The notes beneath the pieces are model-generated. The model saw nothing but the letters and a program-made list of their open reading frames with translations, was not told the origin of the DNA and searched no databases. The position numbers were made by a program, and so were the translations under genes. Shown in pieces: positions 54,760 through 64,000 of a stretch of DNA of 64,000 bases (within the stretch, counting starts at the first letter, position 1; every line of letters begins with the position of its first letter). This DNA is from Erwinia rhapontici (GTDB lineage: Bacteria > Pseudomonadota > Gammaproteobacteria > Enterobacterales > Enterobacteriaceae): the NCBI RefSeq assembly GCF_012271765.1, contig NZ_VRKO01000016.1, positions 434,001 to 498,000 of the forward strand, given 5' to 3'.

Positions 54760-55017
54760 TTACGCATCGTCAGGCGTCATGCCTACCACCACTTCCAGCA
54801 CCTGACGATAGACATCCAGCTGGATTACATCGGTGGTGGTCTCCAGCTTCTCAATCAGTTTCAGGATCATGGCTTTATTGCTGACGTGCGTGCCCTCAGC
54901 GGAGAGCTCCTTAATCACAGCACCCAGAACCTGCACTTCGTGTGAATACTTTTCACCGCCCCCCTGAAAGTAAGACAGGATTTCGGATTCAGGGGATATC
55001 TGCTGCATGTGCTCCAT
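54760..55017 (-). CDS. ariR: AriR (YmgB) biofilm/acid-resistance regulator
   Basis: 85 residues from ATG 55017 (AAGG ribosome site). It aligns along its length with E. coli AriR: 'ILSYFQGGG', 'EVQVLGAVIKELSAEGTHVSNKAMILKLIEKLETTTDVIQ' and the final 'TPDDA'. Last gene of ycgZ-ymgA-ariR, downstream of ymgA by 37 bases. Confidence 0.85.
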   Translation of the reverse strand: MEHMQQISPESEILSYFQGGGEKYSHEVQVLGAVIKELSAEGTHVSNKAMILKLIEKLETTTDVIQLDVYRQVLEVVVGMTPDDA

Positions 55018-55054
55018 GCTGTTCGCCTTATCAATAAAGTTAAAGTGGAAACGC

Positions 55055-55354
55055 TCAGTGTTTTTTGGTGCCGTCAGCCGGGCCTTCACTGGTAAACAGG
55101 TGTGTGACATTGTCGCGATCGCGAATCTCTTGCGTATCGCTGTCACGAACCGGAGCCTGGTGATCCCGGACCTCCGCAATCGCCCGCCGGCAGGCGCGTT
55201 GCCGCGATGTATCTTGCTCTGCGGCAGCCATCATTTGTAACTGGCGAACCAGGGCTGCACTGCTGATGGCGGCATCGGCTTTCAACAGAACCATCACCGC
55301 TTCACCCAAAATAATATCGGAGAGTAACTCTTCTTCGTCTTCGTTTCTGTACAT
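55055..55354 (-). CDS. ymgA: YmgA-like small regulator
   Basis: 99 residues. 'ILGEAVMVLLKADAAISSAALVRQLQMMAAAEQD' matches the YmgA helical pattern, and the C-terminal tail is longer and polar. By position (between ycgZ and ariR) it is the ymgA orthologue. In E. coli this operon is repressed by BluR and released by BluF; no bluR or bluF gene is visible here. Confidence 0.7.
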   Translation of the reverse strand: MYRNEDEEELLSDIILGEAVMVLLKADAAISSAALVRQLQMMAAAEQDTSRQRACRRAIAEVRDHQAPVRDSDTQEIRDRDNVTHLFTSEGPADGTKKH

Positions 55355-55528
55355 ACCAACTTCTCTGAATCAGTGATACGGGCATAGCGTACATACCCGC
55401 AGAAACCTGCATCCCGTTAATGCCATGCCTGCTTAACGCTGGCGACCGGGACGGTCAGATGGTCGGACTGAGTTGTAACCTAACGCGTACGTCAATGTCG
55501 TTAATCCGCAAACATACTGCTTTGAAAC

Positions 55529-55774
55529 TCAGTCCCCGCGGCCAAACAACAGGCCGATCAGTTCTTGATAGTGCCGTTCCTGCTCCGGTCCTGATGCCAG
55601 CTCAAGGCGCGTCAGCAGCTTTGAACAAATAGCCTTCCGGTTAAGTTGACGCCCTGAACGCAGGATCTCAACCACAATCTGGCCAAGCGTTTCCTGCTGA
55701 GAAGGCATCTTTACTTCACTAAAATAACGGCTGATGTCATTTTCAATCTTCGGGTTGGAACCGTCCTGACGCAT
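55529..55774 (-). CDS. ycgZ: YcgZ small regulator
   Basis: 81 residues, strongly similar to E. coli YcgZ: 'ISRYFSEVKMPSQQETLGQIVVEILRSGR', 'LTRLELASGPEQERHYQELIGLLF'. First gene of the block. It feeds the Rcs/biofilm pathway in E. coli. The 174-base gap before ymgA has no gene. Confidence 0.9.
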   Translation of the reverse strand: MRQDGSNPKIENDISRYFSEVKMPSQQETLGQIVVEILRSGRQLNRKAICSKLLTRLELASGPEQERHYQELIGLLFGRGD

Positions 55775-56056: not shown

Positions 56057-56758
56057 TTATTCGCTTAAAGGATAGCCGTGCGCTTCCATAAAATCAGATA
56101 CGGCTTTTTCGGCAACAATAAGGACCTCTTCCAGTGATTGGTTTGCATCAATATCAACAATGTGGGCACCTTCGAAGGTCAGCAAAGGGGTAATGGCAAT
56201 CTTTTTTGCCAGTGATTCAGCAAGATGGTCCGGTTTGCGAGCGCAGGCGACATCCAAATCAACATTCAGCTTTATCACTAAGTCTGGTTTCTGTGTTGTC
56301 ATCCAGTAAAACGCTTTACGTTCGAGAGTCGCCAGCCAGGAAACAAAGCGACTGCCGGGCGCATTAACCGGGAATACCGGGCCATCATAAGTTCCGGGGA
56401 TTTGTACCTGGGGAAAACGGTCGGTTAATACCATCATTCCACGGCGACGAGAAGCCAGCATATGCCGGAAACGCAACAAACGGCGCAGGACGAAACATAT
56501 AATGACCAGGGACGGCAGCAAACCGGGAAGCGTTGTGGGGTTGACAGTATTATGGCGCTTAATCGACTTGCCCAGTGAATTCCCTAACAGAGGCAACTGG
56601 GTGAGGGCGCGGCCTACGTTTCCAGATTGTTTCCCAAGATGAATGTGTATTGCCGGGCCGTATTTTTTTACATAATGAATAAGATATTTACAGACAGTCG
56701 ATTTTCCTGAACCATCACTGCCAATAACCGCAATCAGTGGGGGTGATTTGATTTTCAT
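56057..56758 (-). CDS. Thymidylate-kinase-like P-loop protein, copy 1
   Basis: 233 residues. Walker A '[14 protein letters not shown]', then a DR-x-P motif '[20 protein letters not shown]' and lid-like '[15 protein letters not shown]', the layout of dTMP kinase relatives. It is not the housekeeping tmk, being diverged and paired with two paralogues. It is transcribed away from copies 2 and 3 across a 183-base divergent gap. The substrate is unknown. Confidence 0.7.
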
Positions 56759-56941
56759 TCGATGACTTTTCTCCTTTATTTCTTCGTGGAAAATACGCTT
56801 TTATTTCCAGTTCATCAAGGTTTCTTCATTTGAGAAAACACATGAATTCACAAATGATATTTCTTATGGCACGCAGAGCAAATATTTTCGCAGATGAGAT
56901 GACTTAATATTAATGCAACATTTATTAATATTGGGCTATTT

Positions 56942-57679
56942 GTGCGAAAACAGACAAATCGTTTAACTTATTCTACGCCATTGCGAGTTATTGCTATTAT
57001 TGGGTGCGATGGTTCAGGTAAATCAACGTTGGCATCTCGTCTGGTCACTTATCTCTCCCTATCAGAACCGACAGAGTTACTTTATCTCGGGCAGTCATCG
57101 GGGCGTATCGGGGAATGGATCAGCGGCCTTCCTCTGATTGGCGCGCCTTTAAGTCGCTACTTACGGGCAAAGGCCATCCAGGTGCATCAGCGTTCTTCCG
57201 CGCCACCGGGTGCGTTCACTGCGCTGGTGATCTATCTGCTTTCCTGTTGGCGGGCGTATAAATTCAAGCGAATGCTGGCCAGAAGTGAGCAAGGACGCGT
57301 GCTGGTGACGGATCGCTATCCTCAGGCAGAAGTCGCGGGTTTTCGTTTTGATGGTCCTCAGTTGGCTAAAACTGCGGGGGGAAACTGGTGGGTAAGCACA
57401 CTCAGAAAACGTGAAAAAAAAATGTATCAATGGATGGCCTCCTATCCGCCCATGTTGTTAATCAGACTGAATATTGATGCAGATACGGCGCACTTACGTA
57501 AGCCCGATCACACATTGCAAGCGCTGCGCGAAAAGATTGAGGTCATCCCTCATCTTAATTTTAATGGTGCGGCTATCTGTGATTTAAATGCACGTCATCC
57601 GAAAGATGACGTGTTTAGAGCATCGTTACGTGTGATTAATGCTTATATTCCACTATCGCACGATCAGGCCTGTGATTGA
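56942..57679 (+). CDS. Thymidylate-kinase-like P-loop protein, copy 2
   Basis: 245 residues from a GTG at 56942 (weak ribosome site, start uncertain). Walker A 'GCDGSGKSTLASRL', 'VTDRYPQAEVAGFRFDGPQL' and 'LRKPDHTLQALREKI'. First gene of an apparent operon running to lptG. Same domain plan as copy 1 and 3 but only moderately similar. Confidence 0.7.
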   Translation: MRKQTNRLTYSTPLRVIAIIGCDGSGKSTLASRLVTYLSLSEPTELLYLGQSSGRIGEWISGLPLIGAPLSRYLRAKAIQVHQRSSAPPGAFTALVIYLLSCWRAYKFKRMLARSEQGRVLVTDRYPQAEVAGFRFDGPQLAKTAGGNWWVSTLRKREKKMYQWMASYPPMLLIRLNIDADTAHLRKPDHTLQALREKIEVIPHLNFNGAAICDLNARHPKDDVFRASLRVINAYIPLSHDQACD

Positions 57680-57690
57680 GATTATCATTG

Positions 57691-58449
57691 ATGATAAGGC
57701 GGGAAAATAAAGTGAATGAACATAATCCCTCCCGTTCGCGTGTTATTCCTGGTCTTATCGCCGTGGTGGGATGTGACGGAACGGGAAAGTCGACACTGAC
57801 TCTCGATTTGGTAAAGATGTTGAATCAATACCGCGTGACGGAACGCCGTTATTTGGGGCTGGTATCCGGGGAAGATGGCGATAAAATTAAACGCGTGCCC
57901 TTTATTGGCATATGGCTTGAACGCTATCTGGCGACGCGCTCTTCAAAGAATCAAAACATGAGTACCCATTCCCCTGCTTTATGGGTTGCATTCATTATGT
58001 ATTTATTCTCGTTACGTCGCAGGGCTAAATTGCGTCACGTGCTGCATCTGTCACAGCGCGGCGTATGGGTGATTAGCGACCGTTATCCGCAGGCCGAAAT
58101 TTCAGGTTTTCACTATGATGGACCCGGCATTGGCGTGGAGCGCGTGACTGGCTGGTTTTTGACGCATTTAGCAAAACGCGAAAAACGGTTATATCAGCAA
58201 ATGGCGTTATATCGTCCTGCGTTAGTTATCCGTCTCGGCATTGATATCGATACCGCTTTTTCGCGCAAGCCGGATCATGATTACGATGAGCTAAGGGATA
58301 AGATCGCCGTCATGGAAAGGATTCATTACAACGATGCGACCATCGTTGAGCTGGACGCAAGAGCACCCTATGGCGACGTTCTGGATAAGGCATTGAATGC
58401 CGTATTGTCTGTCGCTGAGATCTCTTCGGCTAGAAAACCGATGCTGTGA
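57691..58449 (+). CDS. Thymidylate-kinase-like P-loop protein, copy 3
   Basis: About 252 residues from ATG 57691; a TTG at 57676 overlapping the previous stop or a GTG at 57712 are alternatives. Walker A 'GCDGTGKSTLTLDL', 'VISDRYPQAEISGFHYDGPG' and 'SRKPDHDYDELRDKI'. It follows copy 2 directly. Three such kinases side by side suggest phosphorylation of a sugar or lipid intermediate rather than dTMP (inference). Confidence 0.7.
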   Translation: MIRRENKVNEHNPSRSRVIPGLIAVVGCDGTGKSTLTLDLVKMLNQYRVTERRYLGLVSGEDGDKIKRVPFIGIWLERYLATRSSKNQNMSTHSPALWVAFIMYLFSLRRRAKLRHVLHLSQRGVWVISDRYPQAEISGFHYDGPGIGVERVTGWFLTHLAKREKRLYQQMALYRPALVIRLGIDIDTAFSRKPDHDYDELRDKIAVMERIHYNDATIVELDARAPYGDVLDKALNAVLSVAEISSARKPML

Positions 58450-58496
58450 ATGTCGCGTTTTCTCTGGTTGAAATGGAATTTGGCAGGTGTTAACCG

Positions 58497-59840
58497 ATGA
58501 AGCATGGGTTCTCAGATGGTGTTTTTCGTACGATTATTCGTAACGCCGCGTATTTAGGTTCCAGTCAGGTTGTCAGTGCCTTACTGGGACTACTGGCACT
58601 GTCTTGCGCGGGAAAAGGCCTGTCACCAGAGATGTTTGGGGTGCTTGTTGTCATTGAATCCTATGCAAAAGCGATAAGTGATTTTGTAAAATTCCAGACG
58701 TGGCAATTGGTGGTGCAATATGGTACGCCGGCATTAGCCAGTAAGAACCTGGAAAAATTTCGTGATGTTATTTCCTTTTCTTTTGGATTAGATATCGCCA
58801 GCGGTGCCGTGGCCGTCATTGTGGGGATGTTACTGCTGCCATTACTTTCTCACTCATTGGGGCTTGATTCCGATAGTTTCTGGCTTGCCATGTTTTACTG
58901 CACGCTGATCCCCTCGCTGGTGGCAGCGACCCCGACGGGGATCTTGCGGGCCGTAAACCGTTTCGATCTGATCGCAATTCAGCAAGCCACACGACCCTTT
59001 CTTCGTGCCGCGGGGAGTGTGCTCTGTTACTTCAGTGAGTTTGGTTTCGCGGGGTTTATCATCACCTGGTATGCCTCAAACATGATCGGTGGTTCACTCT
59101 ATTGGTGGTTTGCCTGGCGGGAGTTACGCCGCAGGGATATTCATCATGCATTACGGCCAGGGCTATTTGGCACGGCACGTAAAATCAAAGGTGCATGGAA
59201 TTTTGTGTGGATAACCAACATTGCTCACTCTGTTTGGGCTGCGCGGAATTCAGGTAGTGCGGTGTTAGTGGGGATTATGTTAGGACCTTCAGCGGCCGGG
59301 TTATTCAAGATTGCGATGACGTTTTTTGATGCTGCTGGATCGCCGGCTAAATTGCTGGAAAAAAGTTTTTATCCTGAAATTATGCGCCTGGACCCACGAA
59401 CGAAAAGACCGTGGTTATTGGGCCTTAAGTCGGCTTGTTTAGCGGGGGGAGTTGGCATACTCGTTGCGCTGGTGGTGGTGGTGGTGGTGGTCGGTAAGCC
59501 GGTAATTTCTCTTTTTTTCGGACAAAGCTACCTGATGGCATATGACTTAATCCGGGTGATGCTCTGCGCGATTATCGTTTCTATGATAGGTTTTCCCCAG
59601 GAGTCATTGTTATTTATGGCGGGAAAACAACGCGCGTTTTTAGTGGCTCAAACGGTAGCATCCGCTGCGTATATCATTCTCTTAATCGTATTTTCTCATT
59701 TATTCGGCGTGTCGGGTGCCGCGTTTGCCTATCTGGGCGGACAATGTCTGGACGTTATGTTGTCATTTATCCCTGTTTTATATACCTGGCGGCACCGCCA
59801 TGTATTGATTTTTAGGGAACCAAAGGAGAGTCATCAATGA
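58497..59840 (+). CDS. MOP-superfamily flippase (polysaccharide/lipid-linked oligosaccharide export)
   Basis: 447 residues with about 12 membrane helices. 'IIRNAAYLGSSQVVSALLGLLALS' at the start and paired helices throughout fit Wzx/RfbX-type flippases that turn undecaprenyl-linked sugars across the inner membrane. A poly-valine stretch (GTGGTG repeats at ~59470) lies in one helix. It overlaps the next gene by four bases (ATGA). Confidence 0.8.
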   Translation: MKHGFSDGVFRTIIRNAAYLGSSQVVSALLGLLALSCAGKGLSPEMFGVLVVIESYAKAISDFVKFQTWQLVVQYGTPALASKNLEKFRDVISFSFGLDIASGAVAVIVGMLLLPLLSHSLGLDSDSFWLAMFYCTLIPSLVAATPTGILRAVNRFDLIAIQQATRPFLRAAGSVLCYFSEFGFAGFIITWYASNMIGGSLYWWFAWRELRRRDIHHALRPGLFGTARKIKGAWNFVWITNIAHSVWAARNSGSAVLVGIMLGPSAAGLFKIAMTFFDAAGSPAKLLEKSFYPEIMRLDPRTKRPWLLGLKSACLAGGVGILVALVVVVVVVGKPVISLFFGQSYLMAYDLIRVMLCAIIVSMIGFPQESLLFMAGKQRAFLVAQTVASAAYIILLIVFSHLFGVSGAAFAYLGGQCLDVMLSFIPVLYTWRHRHVLIFREPKESHQ

Positions 59841-60673
59841 CGAATGGATACGTAGTGAAGACATTTTCACCTGAAACCCTACAGCTGCTCTTTTCTGCAA
59901 TCAATGAAGATGATCTTGTGGATGAAAATGTCAGTCTTCCCCCGCGGATCGATGTGCAATGCACACAGGATAGCCTGCGTGAAAACTATGCTTTGTGCCT
60001 GCAGTATTGGGAAGAGGGAGTTGATCGTCATGAACTATTGAATTTAGTTCGTGAATTATTGAGGGGGGACACATTGTCTGATAGTGCCAGGATGCAGTTT
60101 AAATACATTCGATCCCGCTATAAACATTTACGCTTCGCGCAGAGACTCTATAGTAAAAAACATCTATCCAGACTCTGGTTCAGTAAGACAACGGTCCTGC
60201 TCGGGAAACTTCAGGATGCATTTCGTAACAGTAATATAAGAGCGGTAAAATTTTATGCCGGAATACTGTGTTTTTATCTGAGTAAACCGATCTGGAACTG
60301 GGTTTACTTTTCCCTGCGTGATATGCCATTAGATTCGGCCAGTCATTTTATTGCCTACCGGAAAAAACAGATAAGAAAACTACAGGTTTTAATCGCTAAA
60401 ACCGCGCTGACAGGGCGAGAGTTTCACGCTGTGCGTAAAATTGTCAGCCAGCAGGTATCTTATTATGACACGTTAAGATCTATCGACCCGGGCAACCAGG
60501 ATTTCCATCAGATCTCACGCTTCTTAGCCGCTATTAATGGGGTGATGGGCGATAAGCATGATGAAATGGTCGCTGATAATTTGTCAGGGAGAAGACGCTA
60601 CGACGAACTCGCTCAGCTGGATATTCATCTGCGCCAGCGTCTGGAGCTACTGCTCGCACGGTATCCATTATAA
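59837..60673 (+). CDS. Unknown 278-residue protein coupled to the flippase
   Basis: The ATG overlaps the flippase stop. The protein is mostly helical and basic (YIRSRYKHLRFAQRLYSKKH), with one hydrophobic stretch (VKFYAGILCFYLSKPIWNWV) that may associate with the membrane. No motif recognised. The tight coupling suggests an accessory factor for the flippase or for a synthase. Confidence 0.6.
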   Translation: MTNGYVVKTFSPETLQLLFSAINEDDLVDENVSLPPRIDVQCTQDSLRENYALCLQYWEEGVDRHELLNLVRELLRGDTLSDSARMQFKYIRSRYKHLRFAQRLYSKKHLSRLWFSKTTVLLGKLQDAFRNSNIRAVKFYAGILCFYLSKPIWNWVYFSLRDMPLDSASHFIAYRKKQIRKLQVLIAKTALTGREFHAVRKIVSQQVSYYDTLRSIDPGNQDFHQISRFLAAINGVMGDKHDEMVADNLSGRRRYDELAQLDIHLRQRLELLLARYPL

Positions 60674-60727
60674 GAAGACAGTGCTCAGAGAGCGCTGAAC
60701 AGGAACAGGCGCAAAAAAGGAAGCGCG

Positions 60728-61312
60728 ATGAGATTATGCAGACTGATGTCTATGGCACTGCTGTTGTGGCCGTTGGCAGGATCGGCACATAACTTTATTA
60801 TCGGTGAGCGGGTTGCTCCGATAGTTATCAGGGATCGGGGAGAGCTGTTATTGAATGACAATCGCTTACGTTATCAACCCTGGCGGAGTTCAGCGCTGGC
60901 AGGGAAAGTCCGTGTCGTTCAGTATATTGCCGGGCGTACTTCGGCGAAGAAGAAGAATTCATTGCTGATTAGTGCGATCAAGAATGCGAATTTCCCTGCC
61001 GATCGTTTTCAGCCGACAACCCTTGTTAACACCGACGACGAGATCCCGGGCACCCAATTTTTCGTGCGGAAAAAAATCGAGAAAAATAAAAAACGCTACC
61101 CCTGGGCGCAATTTATTATCGACAGCCACGGTATTGGCCGCAAATCCTGGCAACTTGAGGAAGAGAGTTCAACCATTTTAGTGCTGGATAATGCCGGACG
61201 TATTCAGTGGGCGAAAGAGGGGGCTTTGACGCCGGAGGAAGTCTGTCAGGTGCTCAAAAACGTGCTGAATCTGCTGGATGAGAAACCTCGTAACGCGGAC
61301 TCACCAAAATAA
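60728..61312 (+). CDS. YtfJ-family periplasmic protein
   Basis: 194 residues with signal peptide (LLLWPLAGSAH). Strong YtfJ signature: 'RGELLLNDNRLRYQPW', 'GKVRVVQYIAGRTSAKKKN', 'TTLVNTDDEIPGTQFFVRKK' and 'ALTPEEVCQVLK'. It has a thioredoxin-like fold of unknown activity. Because the cluster setting differs from chromosomal ytfJ, it may be a paralogue. Confidence 0.88.
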   Translation: MRLCRLMSMALLLWPLAGSAHNFIIGERVAPIVIRDRGELLLNDNRLRYQPWRSSALAGKVRVVQYIAGRTSAKKKNSLLISAIKNANFPADRFQPTTLVNTDDEIPGTQFFVRKKIEKNKKRYPWAQFIIDSHGIGRKSWQLEEESSTILVLDNAGRIQWAKEGALTPEEVCQVLKNVLNLLDEKPRNADSPK

Positions 61313-61380
61313 AGTGTCTGTCCTGGTTAAGATTGTCCGTCAGGCTATCTGAGCCAGTGAATGTGGGATTTTCATCATCT

Positions 61381-62451
61381 ATGGACGTAATCGAGCGTTA
61401 TATTGTGACTCAGACCCAACGGTTAGTGCTGACCCTTGTCGGTTTTCTGATAGTTATCTTTGCCAGTTATTCAGCTCAGCGCTATCTGACCGAAGCCGCT
61501 AATGGCACATTATCGCTGGGGGTCGTGCTCGATATTGTCTTTTATAAAGTGCTTATTTCACTCGAAATGCTGATCCCGGTGGGGCTCTATGTTGCCGTTG
61601 GGGTCGCTCTGGGCCAACTCTACAATGACTCAGAGATCACCGCGATGCACGCTGCGGGGGCCAGCCCGATACGGATTTATAAAGCCGTGCTATGGCTTGC
61701 CATTCCTTTCGGAATAGGGGTCATGCTTCTCTCGTTGTACGCCAGACCCTGGGCTTACGGAGAGATTTATCAGTTAGAACAGCGCTCGCAGTCTGAAATG
61801 AACGTGAATCATCTGATAGCCAATAAATTTAATGTGAATGACGATGGGCGGATGGTGGTCGCTTCAACGGTTGACGCGGCGAACAACGTATTAACCGATG
61901 CGCTGATTTATACCTCATCCGATAACAAGAGCCATATATACCGGGCAAGGAAGGTCACAGTGCTGGGTACGCTGTCTTCATCGCCCTCTGTCCTGCTGCA
62001 CACAGGAACGTCTTATGTGCTGGATCATCGGGGATGGGGGGACCAGGAAATGCGTTATCAGGATCAGCATCTGCACCTTAAAGCGATCCAGCCAACGGCA
62101 TTGATGAAGCGTAAGTCGGCATCAATCACGACATTATCGCGCTCGACCGCTCCGGCTGATATCGCCGAACGACAATGGCGAGAAAGCCGTGGGCTCAATA
62201 CGATATTGATGACGTTATTGGCGATTTCGTTAAGCCGTATCAAGCCACGGCAGGGGCGTTTTACCACATTACTGCCCTTAACCCTCGTATTTACCCTTAT
62301 TTTTTATGGCGGCAATCTGTGCCGCACACTGGTAGCCAATAGCGCCTTTCCTGTTATTCCGGGCGTCTGGTTTTTGTCCTTACTGATGCTGGCTGGCGTC
62401 GTGATACTGATGGCGCGTGACTTTTCGTTATGGCAAAAATTTTTGCGATGA
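61381..62451 (+). CDS. LptF-family permease (YjgP/YjgQ), accessory copy
   Basis: About 356 residues from ATG 61381 (upstream in-frame TTG/GTG starts lack ribosome sites). Begins 'DVIERYIVTQTQRLVLTLVG'; six membrane helices with a large periplasmic beta-jellyroll domain (~110-260) between helices 3 and 4, as in LptF. With its partner LptG it normally joins LptB to extract lipopolysaccharide. The usual lptFG genes lie next to pepA, so this is probably a second copy. Confidence 0.85.
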   Translation: MDVIERYIVTQTQRLVLTLVGFLIVIFASYSAQRYLTEAANGTLSLGVVLDIVFYKVLISLEMLIPVGLYVAVGVALGQLYNDSEITAMHAAGASPIRIYKAVLWLAIPFGIGVMLLSLYARPWAYGEIYQLEQRSQSEMNVNHLIANKFNVNDDGRMVVASTVDAANNVLTDALIYTSSDNKSHIYRARKVTVLGTLSSSPSVLLHTGTSYVLDHRGWGDQEMRYQDQHLHLKAIQPTALMKRKSASITTLSRSTAPADIAERQWRESRGLNTILMTLLAISLSRIKPRQGRFTTLLPLTLVFTLIFYGGNLCRTLVANSAFPVIPGVWFLSLLMLAGVVILMARDFSLWQKFLR

Positions 62452-63527
62452 CACTCTTCAGCCGTTATTTACTGCGTCATGTCTTTACCGGATTTGCGGC
62501 TGCAGCAGGATTGCTCATTCCGCTTTTTACTACGTTTAACCTGATTAGTGAGCTGGATGATGTCACACCGGGTGGATACCACTGGACTCAGGCCATTCTG
62601 GTGGTGTTGATGACTCTGCCCAGAAGCCTGATTGATATGGGGCCATTTATTGCGCTGCTCGGTGGGATCGTAGGATTAGGACTGCTTTCTAAAAACCTGG
62701 AGTTAACGGCGATGCGAACGGTGGGTTTTTCCATCTTTAACATCGCCATGGCAATGGTGTGTGCCGGATTGATTTTGACCCTGGCTCTCAGCACAGTTGA
62801 TGAATGGGGGGCCTCGCCCTTACAGCAACGCGCAATTCAACTGAAAAGCAGCGCTATTTCCCCGGAGGCGAATAGCGATAATACCCAAAACAGGCTGTGG
62901 GCCAGGCGCAATGATGAGTTTGCTACGGTAAAAAACCTGGATAAACATCATCAACCGCTGGGTGTTGAAATATTTTCCTACCAGAAAGATCTCTCGCTGC
63001 AATCCTACATTTATGCCGAACACGCCACCATTCTGGATAATGGAATATGGATTCTGCATGATGTTTATCAAAAGAAATGGCGGCACGGAAAAGAAGAGGT
63101 TAGCAGGCTGGATACGCTGCCCTGGGCCTCTCTTTTTTCTCATATCAGCCTGACTGAACTGACTATGCCCGCTAACAGCTTCTCCATCAGACAGCTCTGT
63201 CGTTATATTCGCTACCTGCAAGATACGCATCAGCCCAGTCAGGAATTTGCTATTGCCCTGTGGCAGAAACTGGGAAGACCTATTTTAACGCTTGCCATGA
63301 TATTACTGGCGATCCCCTTCACCTTTAGCCTCCCTCGCTCGCCAGGCTTGGGAAGCCGTTTAGCCACCGGTGTTATTGTGGGGCTACTGGCCTGGATCAC
63401 CGATCAAATCATCATCAACTTAGGGATATTACTCTCACTGAATGCACCGCTAATGACAGTGGCACCGCCTGTATTACTGTTGATCCTCGCCCTGTTGCTG
63501 GTATATCGCTTTGATCAACGGCATTAG
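62448..63527 (+). CDS. LptG-family permease, accessory copy
   Basis: 359 residues from ATG 62448, which overlaps the lptF-like stop (ATGA). 'LFSRYLLRHVFTGFAAAAGL' and 'LPRSLIDMGPFIALLGGIVGLG' are typical of LptG, with the jellyroll domain and three C-terminal helices (LGRPILTLAMILLAIPFTFS, GVIVGLLAWITDQIIINLGI). It forms a heterodimer with the upstream LptF-like protein. Confidence 0.85.
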   Translation: MTLFSRYLLRHVFTGFAAAAGLLIPLFTTFNLISELDDVTPGGYHWTQAILVVLMTLPRSLIDMGPFIALLGGIVGLGLLSKNLELTAMRTVGFSIFNIAMAMVCAGLILTLALSTVDEWGASPLQQRAIQLKSSAISPEANSDNTQNRLWARRNDEFATVKNLDKHHQPLGVEIFSYQKDLSLQSYIYAEHATILDNGIWILHDVYQKKWRHGKEEVSRLDTLPWASLFSHISLTELTMPANSFSIRQLCRYIRYLQDTHQPSQEFAIALWQKLGRPILTLAMILLAIPFTFSLPRSPGLGSRLATGVIVGLLAWITDQIIINLGILLSLNAPLMTVAPPVLLLILALLLVYRFDQRH

Positions 63528-63545
63528 CCGCAGGGCAAGGGCGTA

Positions 63546-64000
63546 CTAGCGCTTTAGTTCGGCGAATGCCTGAATGATAGTATCGATTTGTGCTTTACTG
63601 TGGGCCGCGCTGACACTGCAGCGCAGTAGCGTTTGACCCGCAGGAGTGGCGGGGGGTAACACCAGGTTGACATAGACATGCTTTTCTATCAGATCGCGCC
63701 AGAAACGCAGACCTTCTTCTTTCGACTCCATCACCACCGGGACCACCGGGCTGATGTTGGGGCCAAGCGTGTAACCCCATTTTTTCAGCCCCTGATAGAG
63801 CCGACGCGCATTATCCCAGAGTGTTTCACGCAGCTCCGGATGCTGTGAAATGGTCCTTAAAGAGGAGCGAACAGAGGCTATCGTGGAGGGCGAGGGGGAG
63901 GCGGTGAAGATGTAAGGGCGACTGCTGTAGCGCAGTGCCTCCATGGCCAGCGGACCGGCGGCAAAGCCACCAACGGAAGCCAGACTTTTGCTGAATGTGC
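63546..64000 (-). CDS. Alpha-oxoamine synthase family protein (BioF/Spt-like), C-terminal part
   Basis: The frame runs off the window edge, with about 151 residues in view. 'TFSKSLASVGGFAAGPL' carries the PLP lysine of the alpha-oxoamine synthases (8-amino-7-oxononanoate synthase, serine palmitoyltransferase, KBL); 'SSRPYIFTASPSPS' and 'LPPATPAGQTLLRCSVSAAH' complete the signature. Convergent with lptG. Next to a second LptFG pair, a role in lipid (sphingoid-like) synthesis is more likely than biotin synthesis, but that is inference. Confidence 0.8.
   Translation of the reverse strand, partial: TFSKSLASVGGFAAGPLAMEALRYSSRPYIFTASPSPSTIASVRSSLRTISQHPELRETLWDNARRLYQGLKKWGYTLGPNISPVVPVVMESKEEGLRFWRDLIEKHVYVNLVLPPATPAGQTLLRCSVSAAHSKAQIDTIIQAFAELKR

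Follow-up and report, generated by a model that had tools for sequence, protein, structure and literature searches.

Sphingolipids are fats usually linked with animals. Here, we describe a bacterial gene cluster that is likely to make one and to carry it outwards. The cluster occupies the right end of a 64,000-nt stretch of the Erwinia rhapontici genome (the window; positions 434,001 to 498,000 of contig NZ_VRKO01000016.1, G000:C4:434001-498000 in our numbering) and continues past it. We consider it likely that these genes form a 13-gene sphingolipid locus, in which a ceramide is made, phosphorylated by three thymidylate-kinase-like proteins (KinA, KinB and KinC), flipped by a MOP-superfamily protein and exported by a second LptF–LptG pair (LptF2 and LptG2). 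The initial annotation, made from the letters of the window, had proposed a dedicated outer-membrane lipid with an intermediate modified by the kinase-like proteins. The lipid is a sphingolipid, because its synthase passes the NCBI cut-off for serine palmitoyltransferase, whereas we infer the exact product, the action of the kinases on a lipid intermediate and the transport by LptF2–LptG2 from gene content.

The ceramide-making half of the locus lies largely to the right of the window (locus L005), where the rest of spt is followed by acpR, cerR and aasR, all on the minus strand, and by cerS on the plus strand, reaching to around position 69249. The whole Spt protein scores 599.1 bits with the serine palmitoyltransferase model NF047599 (cut-off 500). 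Biotin synthesis was rejected as its role: with the bioF (8-amino-7-oxononanoate synthase) model Spt scores 316.6 bits where 426 are required, whereas it does pass the Spt cut-off. AcpR is an 86-amino-acid acyl carrier protein (PF00550, 47.5 bits), the CerR-type protein is a 306-amino-acid NAD-dependent reductase and the AasR-type protein is a 582-amino-acid fatty acyl-AMP ligase (NF006624, 832 bits against 600). CerS (395 amino acids) has no Pfam match and is assigned because it is 80% identical to E. coli YghO, listed as the N-acyltransferase gene ‘aca’ in PMC9386255. Acyl carrier protein, ketosphinganine-reductase-like and acyltransferase genes, which the initial annotation thought worth seeking on this side, are hence present as the AcpR, CerR and CerS types. 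The five proteins are 66–80% identical to those of the E. coli O157 locus (78% for Spt), and, judged by sequence, the five genes are the known proteobacterial five-gene ceramide pathway. The same five genes, with the same neighbours as in the window locus, occur in E. coli B as ECD_02850 (yghO, ‘aca’), ECD_02851 (aasR), ECD_02852 (epi), ECD_02853 (acpR) and ECD_02854 (spt), and co-expression of E. coli Spt, AcpR and AasR yielded 3-oxo-sphinganine (PMC9386255). The part of that paper available to us does not treat the neighbouring kinases, CHAD protein, flippase, YtfJ and LptFG, or the share of E. coli genomes with the genes.

On the other side of the ceramide genes stand the three kinases. KinA, KinB and KinC are 70, 66 and 66% identical to E. 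coli O157 YghT, YghS and YghR, respectively. With the Pfam model Thymidylate_kin (PF02223), all three remain under the cut-off of 27 bits, KinA with 24 bits and KinB with a weak match of 16 bits; the Walker motif and RKPDH are present in both. Structure prediction was applied to KinC and to the CHAD protein described below. The KinC model (predicted local distance difference test (pLDDT) of 67.9) aligns with human thymidylate kinase 1e9d in VIA at Z 15.0 (root-mean-square deviation (rmsd) 3.9, 176 residues aligned), and thymidylate kinase is also the top Foldseek match (best E 7.5e-07), so that KinC is predicted to adopt a thymidylate-kinase fold. Thymidylate kinases share with the trio this fold (in KinC), the P-loop and the DR motif. 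In contrast to them, the trio has the RKPDH motif, is linked to spt and scores at best 33 bits against 83; a role as dTMP kinase proper was ruled out by TIGR00041, whose cut-off of 83.25 bits is missed by KinA (26.4), KinB (17.3) and KinC (33.2). A quick tree of 185 kinase domains required 3 label changes, against a minimum of 2 and a shuffled mean of 87.5: a branch with support 80 sets KinA off from the rest, KinC was recovered apart from L088 (99) and KinB was not separated from KinC. Gamma-, beta- and alphaproteobacteria are represented in each of the three types. DR[YFW]PQ is found in 56 of 60 KinA, 63 of 63 KinB and 58 of 62 KinC domains and R[KR]xDH in all of them; the count of P-loops is partly set by construction, since the P-loop pattern also defined where the domains were cut (one open reading frame of at least 150 amino acids lacks it). 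Two Candidatus Nitrotoga genomes encode a KinB–KinC fusion of roughly 500 amino acids (L075:9062-10669 and L077:9125-10669), the second domain of which the tree places in KinC. The kinases thus appear to be old paralogues with conserved catalytic motifs, and the conservation of separate copies suggests distinct steps for KinA, KinB and KinC.

The 278-residue protein that the initial annotation left as an unknown coupled protein has no Pfam match, and its AF2 model, built from 14 sequences (pLDDT 91.8), points to a divergent form of the CHAD fold, a double bundle of four helices each. The top five VIA-align matches all belong to the CHAD family (Z 12.7–11.6, over 204–223 of the 278 residues), followed by vinculin at 8.7; the best, the polyphosphate-bound 6qva, has Z 12.7 (rmsd 4.1, 217 residues), close to the Z of around 13 that helical bundles may reach through a common arrangement. 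Foldseek also ranks a CHAD structure first (6qv5, E 0.045), a value that does not by itself settle the fold. The Pfam CHAD model PF05235 gave matches, all below its cut-off, to one of 14 close members (E 0.0024) and to all four distant relatives (E 0.06 to 0.00035). Homology to CHAD is favoured because the five leading matches are all CHAD and because the distant relatives give these sub-threshold matches; the likeness lies in the predicted fold, and the difference in that every member scanned is below the cut-off or unmatched. CHAD domains are reported to bind inorganic polyphosphate (PMC6537752). The adjoining flippase passes PF01943 (Polysacc_synt) with 49.2 bits against 28.2 and is 71% identical to its E. 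coli O157 counterpart.

Together, these assignments outline a pathway. AasR would load a fatty acid onto AcpR, Spt would condense the AcpR-bound fatty acid with serine to 3-oxo-sphinganine, and N-acylation by CerS and reduction by CerR would give dihydroceramide; earlier work on homologues, among them the E. coli Spt, AcpR and AasR trio, has demonstrated these ceramide-making steps, which may be expected here by analogy. KinA, KinB and KinC, in distinct roles, would then phosphorylate the ceramide head group, and the CHAD-fold protein could act in the cytoplasm, binding the phosphorylated head group and handing it to the MOP flippase, which would turn the lipid over in the inner membrane. Driven by the shared LptB ATPase, and with periplasmic YtfJ2 taking part, LptF2–LptG2 would finally bring the lipid to the outer membrane along an Lpt-type bridge. 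Thymidylate kinase transfers phosphate onto a phosphate, and this chemistry, combined with a polyphosphate-binding partner, would suit a multiply phosphorylated head group. In its boldest form, which we regard as unlikely, the proposal would define a new lipid class: a ceramide whose head group is a phosphoanhydride (di- or triphosphate), assembled on phosphate acceptors by three thymidylate-kinase-type enzymes acting in turn, with a polyphosphate-binding CHAD chaperone and a dedicated Lpt permease for export. The ability to make this lipid would be present in most wild E. coli, and K-12 would have lost it by an IS5-linked deletion.

The kinases might instead make an activated soluble donor, such as a sugar phosphate or an unusual nucleotide, and the lipid flipped by a Wzx-like MOP protein would then be a glyco- or nucleotide-derived sphingolipid. 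This is unlikely in our estimate. Such a donor would fit the thymidylate-kinase fold, which is that of a nucleotide kinase, the usual cargo of MOP proteins, which is sugar-linked lipid, and one KinC locus (L069) in which a glycosyltransferase gene separates kinA from kinB. However, Pfam finds no glycosyltransferase or nucleotidyltransferase among the 13 proteins, of which CerS and the CHAD protein are unmatched entirely, and two loci bring the kinases together with lipid- or phosphate-lipid-modifying families: in L046, where spt and lptF2G2 are also present, they adjoin a DAGK_cat lipid kinase gene (and an Asp/Asn-hydroxylase-type gene), and in L066 they occur with PAP2- and PEMT-type genes (and again an Asp/Asn-hydroxylase-type gene).

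Phosphorylation of the ceramide itself is our preferred role for the kinases. LptF2 and LptG2, for their part, might be a spare exporter of lipopolysaccharide, or serve another glycolipid, and merely adjoin spt. Both proteins are family members (PF03739, cut-off 27.9; 158 bits for LptF2 and 205 bits for LptG2), and no dedicated LptB or LptC domain occurs among the 13 proteins, as would be the case for a spare copy. The genome does contain housekeeping lptF and lptG, on contig C8, adjoining pepA as the initial annotation had anticipated, together with holC and valS in K-12 order (tblastn identities to the K-12 proteins of 87% for valS, 78% for holC, 90% for pepA, 78% for lptF and 80% for lptG). 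The coupling-helix segments SEITAM (LptF2) and LELTAM (LptG2) align with the housekeeping SEITVM and SELVVM, and their glutamate, which faces LptB, is E in all 49 aligned LptF/LptG rows, the window copies included; a narrower motif pattern matched 27 of the 49. Unlike the housekeeping LptB2FG components with which they share family and glutamate, the second copies are linked to spt instead of pepA and are only 22% (LptF2) and 25% (LptG2) identical to them. The rows split into LptF and LptG sides (support 100/100), with LptF2 and LptG2 as tentative clades apart from the housekeeping proteins (62/86 and 56/90). Moreover, of 20 kinase-free spt loci, fetched from 23 such genomes, 16 have homologues of both lptF and lptG close to spt (lptG is cut in L143), and an LptFG pair accompanies spt in Caulobacter (PMC11324152). 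We therefore judge a spare exporter to be quite improbable. None of these 20 loci contained KinA–C or CHAD homologues, and a weak flippase match was found in one. Ten neighbour proteins from six of the kinase-free loci were scanned; L133 and L139 encode ABC exporter-type proteins (labelled MsbA-like), while the MobA-like nucleotidyltransferases of L133 and L138 recall Caulobacter CC_1153 (PMC11324152). In two gammaproteobacterial KinC loci, an LptA/LptD_N-type gene adjoins lptF2 (L073:7836-8450 and L081:10712-11242) and could encode a dedicated LptA2.

The kinases, the transport genes and the ceramide genes recur as a set. In 98 near genomes, our own included, Spt (E ≤ 1e-100) was found in 16 and KinC (E ≤ 1e-70) in 15, all 15 of them Spt-positive; KinC was found in none of the 82 Spt-negative near genomes. 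In G001, the single Spt-positive near genome without KinC, the locus lies on a 12.5 kb contig. All 13 genes lie within 20 kb in 12 of the 15 other Spt neighbourhoods fetched; L013 has eight of them in the fetched DNA, and L020 and L024 end at contig ends. Four gene orders occur (L010, as in the window; L014/L017/L018; L019/L022; and L023), the ychF flank of the window locus recurs in two of the 15 (L010 and L013), and an AriR-like flank gene adjoins kinA in two (L011 and L012). Since the block recurs in many genomes, it is not a chance arrangement, and because the order shuffles and flanks are rarely in common, the set seems to be held together by selection or co-travelling, beyond undisturbed synteny.

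A KinC scan of a named genome collection yielded 64 loci, viewed with flanks of up to 10 kb. On the enteric side they come from Erwinia, Pantoea, Tatumella, Rosenbergiella, Serratia, Rahnella, Escherichia, Citrobacter, Klebsiella, Pluralibacter, Mangrovibacter and others, and elsewhere from sphingomonads, Acetobacter, Methylotenera, Nitrotoga, Halioglobus, metagenome-assembled genomes of Comamonadaceae and Myxococcales, and others. The 44 enteric-like loci, a group set by locus number that includes L046 (a Pseudomonas metagenome-assembled genome) and L056 (labelled Martelella alba), all have the three kinases; 42 have spt and 27 all 13 genes, a good part of the shortfall lying at flank or contig ends. 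L056 is an enteric-type locus on a contig named for an alphaproteobacterium, and this genome is possibly mislabelled. Where spt proved remote, cut or non-enteric (23 of the 64 KinC genomes), Spt was sought genome-wide and found above 440 bits in 21. This threshold defines a clear Spt, as with alignment A5 matches of around 270 bits also pass E 1e-80; in 31 of 55 positive class genomes the Spt matches reach 270–370 bits only and are probably other alpha-oxoamine synthases. By the same rule G473 (349 bits) and G484 (275 bits) have no clear Spt, and the ‘KinC’ of G484 (L088), at 27% identity, probably lies outside the family. A class-wide sample of 369 other genomes includes 23 with Spt above 440 bits, and KinC was found in none of the 369, a count that is no proof because only some candidates were scored per genome (7 of 34 in our own). 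As 23 genomes have Spt and none showed KinC, the kinase module appears to go with sphingolipid synthesis, but not conversely. MOP flippases are typical of polysaccharide loci, and the sphingomonad and acetobacter loci lack spt in their flanking DNA, but the constancy of the gene set in shuffled order and the genome-level linkage of KinC to Spt (21 of 23, against 0 of 82) led us to rule out an unrelated surface-polysaccharide module of kinases, flippase and CHAD protein that happens to adjoin the ceramide genes, a reading we consider extremely improbable.

Several findings weigh against the 13-gene pathway that we propose. KinA–C reach no NCBIfam cut-off, and their chemistry and substrates are putative; the CHAD protein misses its Pfam cut-off, so ligand binding may be lost; and Pfam finds no LptC, LptA or LptB domain among the 13 proteins. 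Of the 20 KinC loci outside the enteric-like group, 13 show the three kinases in their flanking DNA, 6 the CHAD protein and 3 spt, and ytfJ2 is matched in none. L034 lacks the flippase, CHAD, ytfJ2 and lptFG2 in its flanking DNA, and L046 lacks the flippase, CHAD and ytfJ2 and has its DAGK-type lipid kinase. In E. coli, three of 15 loci viewed carry a pseudogene (lptG and aasR in one, yghT in another and spt in the third), so that the pathway can be dispensed with there.

In E. coli O157:H7 LSU61 the order is pitB, yghT–yghS–yghR–yghQ–CHAD–ytfJ–lptF–lptG, spt–acpR–cerR–aasR, yghO, glcC (yghR and yghQ named from the K-12 order), and the proteins are 59–80% identical, one by one, to those of the window locus. 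With presence defined as at least 80% query coverage, the whole 13-kb locus is found in 4006 of 5426 complete E. coli genomes, spt–aasR in 4023, CHAD–lptG in 4058 and the kinases in 4559. K-12 MG1655 keeps yghT, yghS, yghR, a shortened yghQ, an IS5 and yghO: 8.4 kb of the O157 locus is gone exactly between the IS5 ends (L113:8147-9341), with the break within the start of yghO. BL21(DE3) has all 13 genes, none flagged as broken, and no locus pseudogene is flagged in 12 of the 15 E. coli loci viewed, which were taken mostly at steps down a ranking rather than at random. The ratio of non-synonymous to synonymous substitution rates (dN/dS) between O157 and the diverged Escherichia L036 and L038 is at most 0.14 for all 13 genes, with yghO half covered. 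Mutations in K-12 yghQ are reported to have arisen during adaptation to chlorhexidine (PMC8170033); because K-12 yghQ is shortened, this result says little. The loss of the core in K-12 may explain why the left-over genes never got a function.

The nearest described relative is the Caulobacter region CC_1168–CC_1152, which likewise has five ceramide genes, a second LptF/LptG pair and a proposed flippase; LptC2F2G2 and the flippase were proposed to carry sphingolipid to the outer membrane, a transport that the authors say they did not study further (PMC11324152). The head group in Caulobacter is assigned to the DAGK-type ceramide kinase CC_1160 with CC_1161, CC_1159, CC_1153, CC_1152 and CC_1158 (PMC11324152). 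By contrast, Pfam finds no DAGK-type kinase, CDP-alcohol transferase or nucleotidyltransferase domain among the 13 proteins of the window locus (two DAGK_cat genes lie elsewhere in the genome, outside the cluster), which has instead the three thymidylate-kinase-like proteins, the MOP flippase and the CHAD protein; Caulobacter has LptC2 in addition. By analogy, the kinase–CHAD–flippase module may replace the Caulobacter head-group genes. The initial annotation knew of no described system with this set, which so far appears to hold for the kinases, CHAD protein and flippase; the ceramide half is already published for E. coli B (PMC9386255), and a second LptFG pair beside ceramide genes is published, as a proposal for sphingolipids, for Caulobacter (PMC11324152). 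Among the papers listed from the open-licence PubMed Central (PMC) literature, we found none that places the kinase trio, CHAD protein and flippase in a sphingolipid locus, links yghQRST or CHAD with sphingolipids, describes ceramide pyro- or polyphosphate, or reports the prevalence of the locus in E. coli and its loss in K-12, which is no proof of absence; PMC11087976 states that a flippase or transporter for sphingolipids was yet to be identified.

The locus offers a concrete pathway for the orphan E. coli genes yghO, yghQ, yghR, yghS and yghT, one that work in K-12 may have been unable to find with the core gone. It suggests that roughly three quarters of the complete E. coli genomes in the search, and BL21(DE3), could make an outer-membrane sphingolipid, which, if made, would bear on the biology of the envelope, on host sphingolipid signalling and on differences between strains. 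The locus would also represent a second head-group and flipping module for LptFG-linked sphingolipids, alternative to that of Caulobacter, and it makes E. coli a system in which to test how bacterial sphingolipids reach the outer membrane.

All open reading frames of the initial annotation were found where it had placed them. Its operon structure needs one correction: the synthase gene is not downstream of lptG in a common operon, but is convergent with lptG2 on the minus strand and runs beyond the window end. Overlaps of 4 nt (kinB/kinC and flippase/CHAD) and 22 nt (lptF2/lptG2) occur. The N terminus of YtfJ2 resembles a signal peptide by eye, and a second copy of ytfJ is present elsewhere in the genome.

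Table 1 Genes of the sphingolipid locus inside the window, in window coordinates
Gene or product	Position	Strand	Basis
kinA, yghT orthologue, thymidylate-kinase-like P-loop protein 1	56057-56758	-	TMK-like match below Pfam cut-off
kinB, yghS orthologue, thymidylate-kinase-like P-loop protein 2	56942-57679	+	Weak Thymidylate_kin match
kinC, yghR orthologue, thymidylate-kinase-like P-loop protein 3; start codon uncertain	57676-58449	+	Model, identity
MOP-superfamily flippase, yghQ orthologue	58497-59840	+	Pfam Polysacc_synt
Divergent CHAD-fold protein (predicted), 278 aa	59837-60673	+	AF2 model, VIA matches
ytfJ2, second YtfJ-family protein	60728-61312	+	Pfam YtfJ_HI0045, 203.5 bits
lptF2, second LptF	61333-62451	+	PF03739
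lptG2, second LptG	62430-63527	+	PF03739
spt, serine palmitoyltransferase, C-terminal part	63546-64000; gene on to ~64718 (or 64775, start uncertain)	-	NF047599

Two further features flank the locus. Upstream of kinA, at window positions 54760-55774 on the minus strand, are small proteins resembling the E. coli AriR/YmgB family by eye. Beyond cerS, a 485-amino-acid protein with a weak hydrolase match (L005:14676-16133, minus strand) separates it from the next two genes, which we take to be ychF and dauA.

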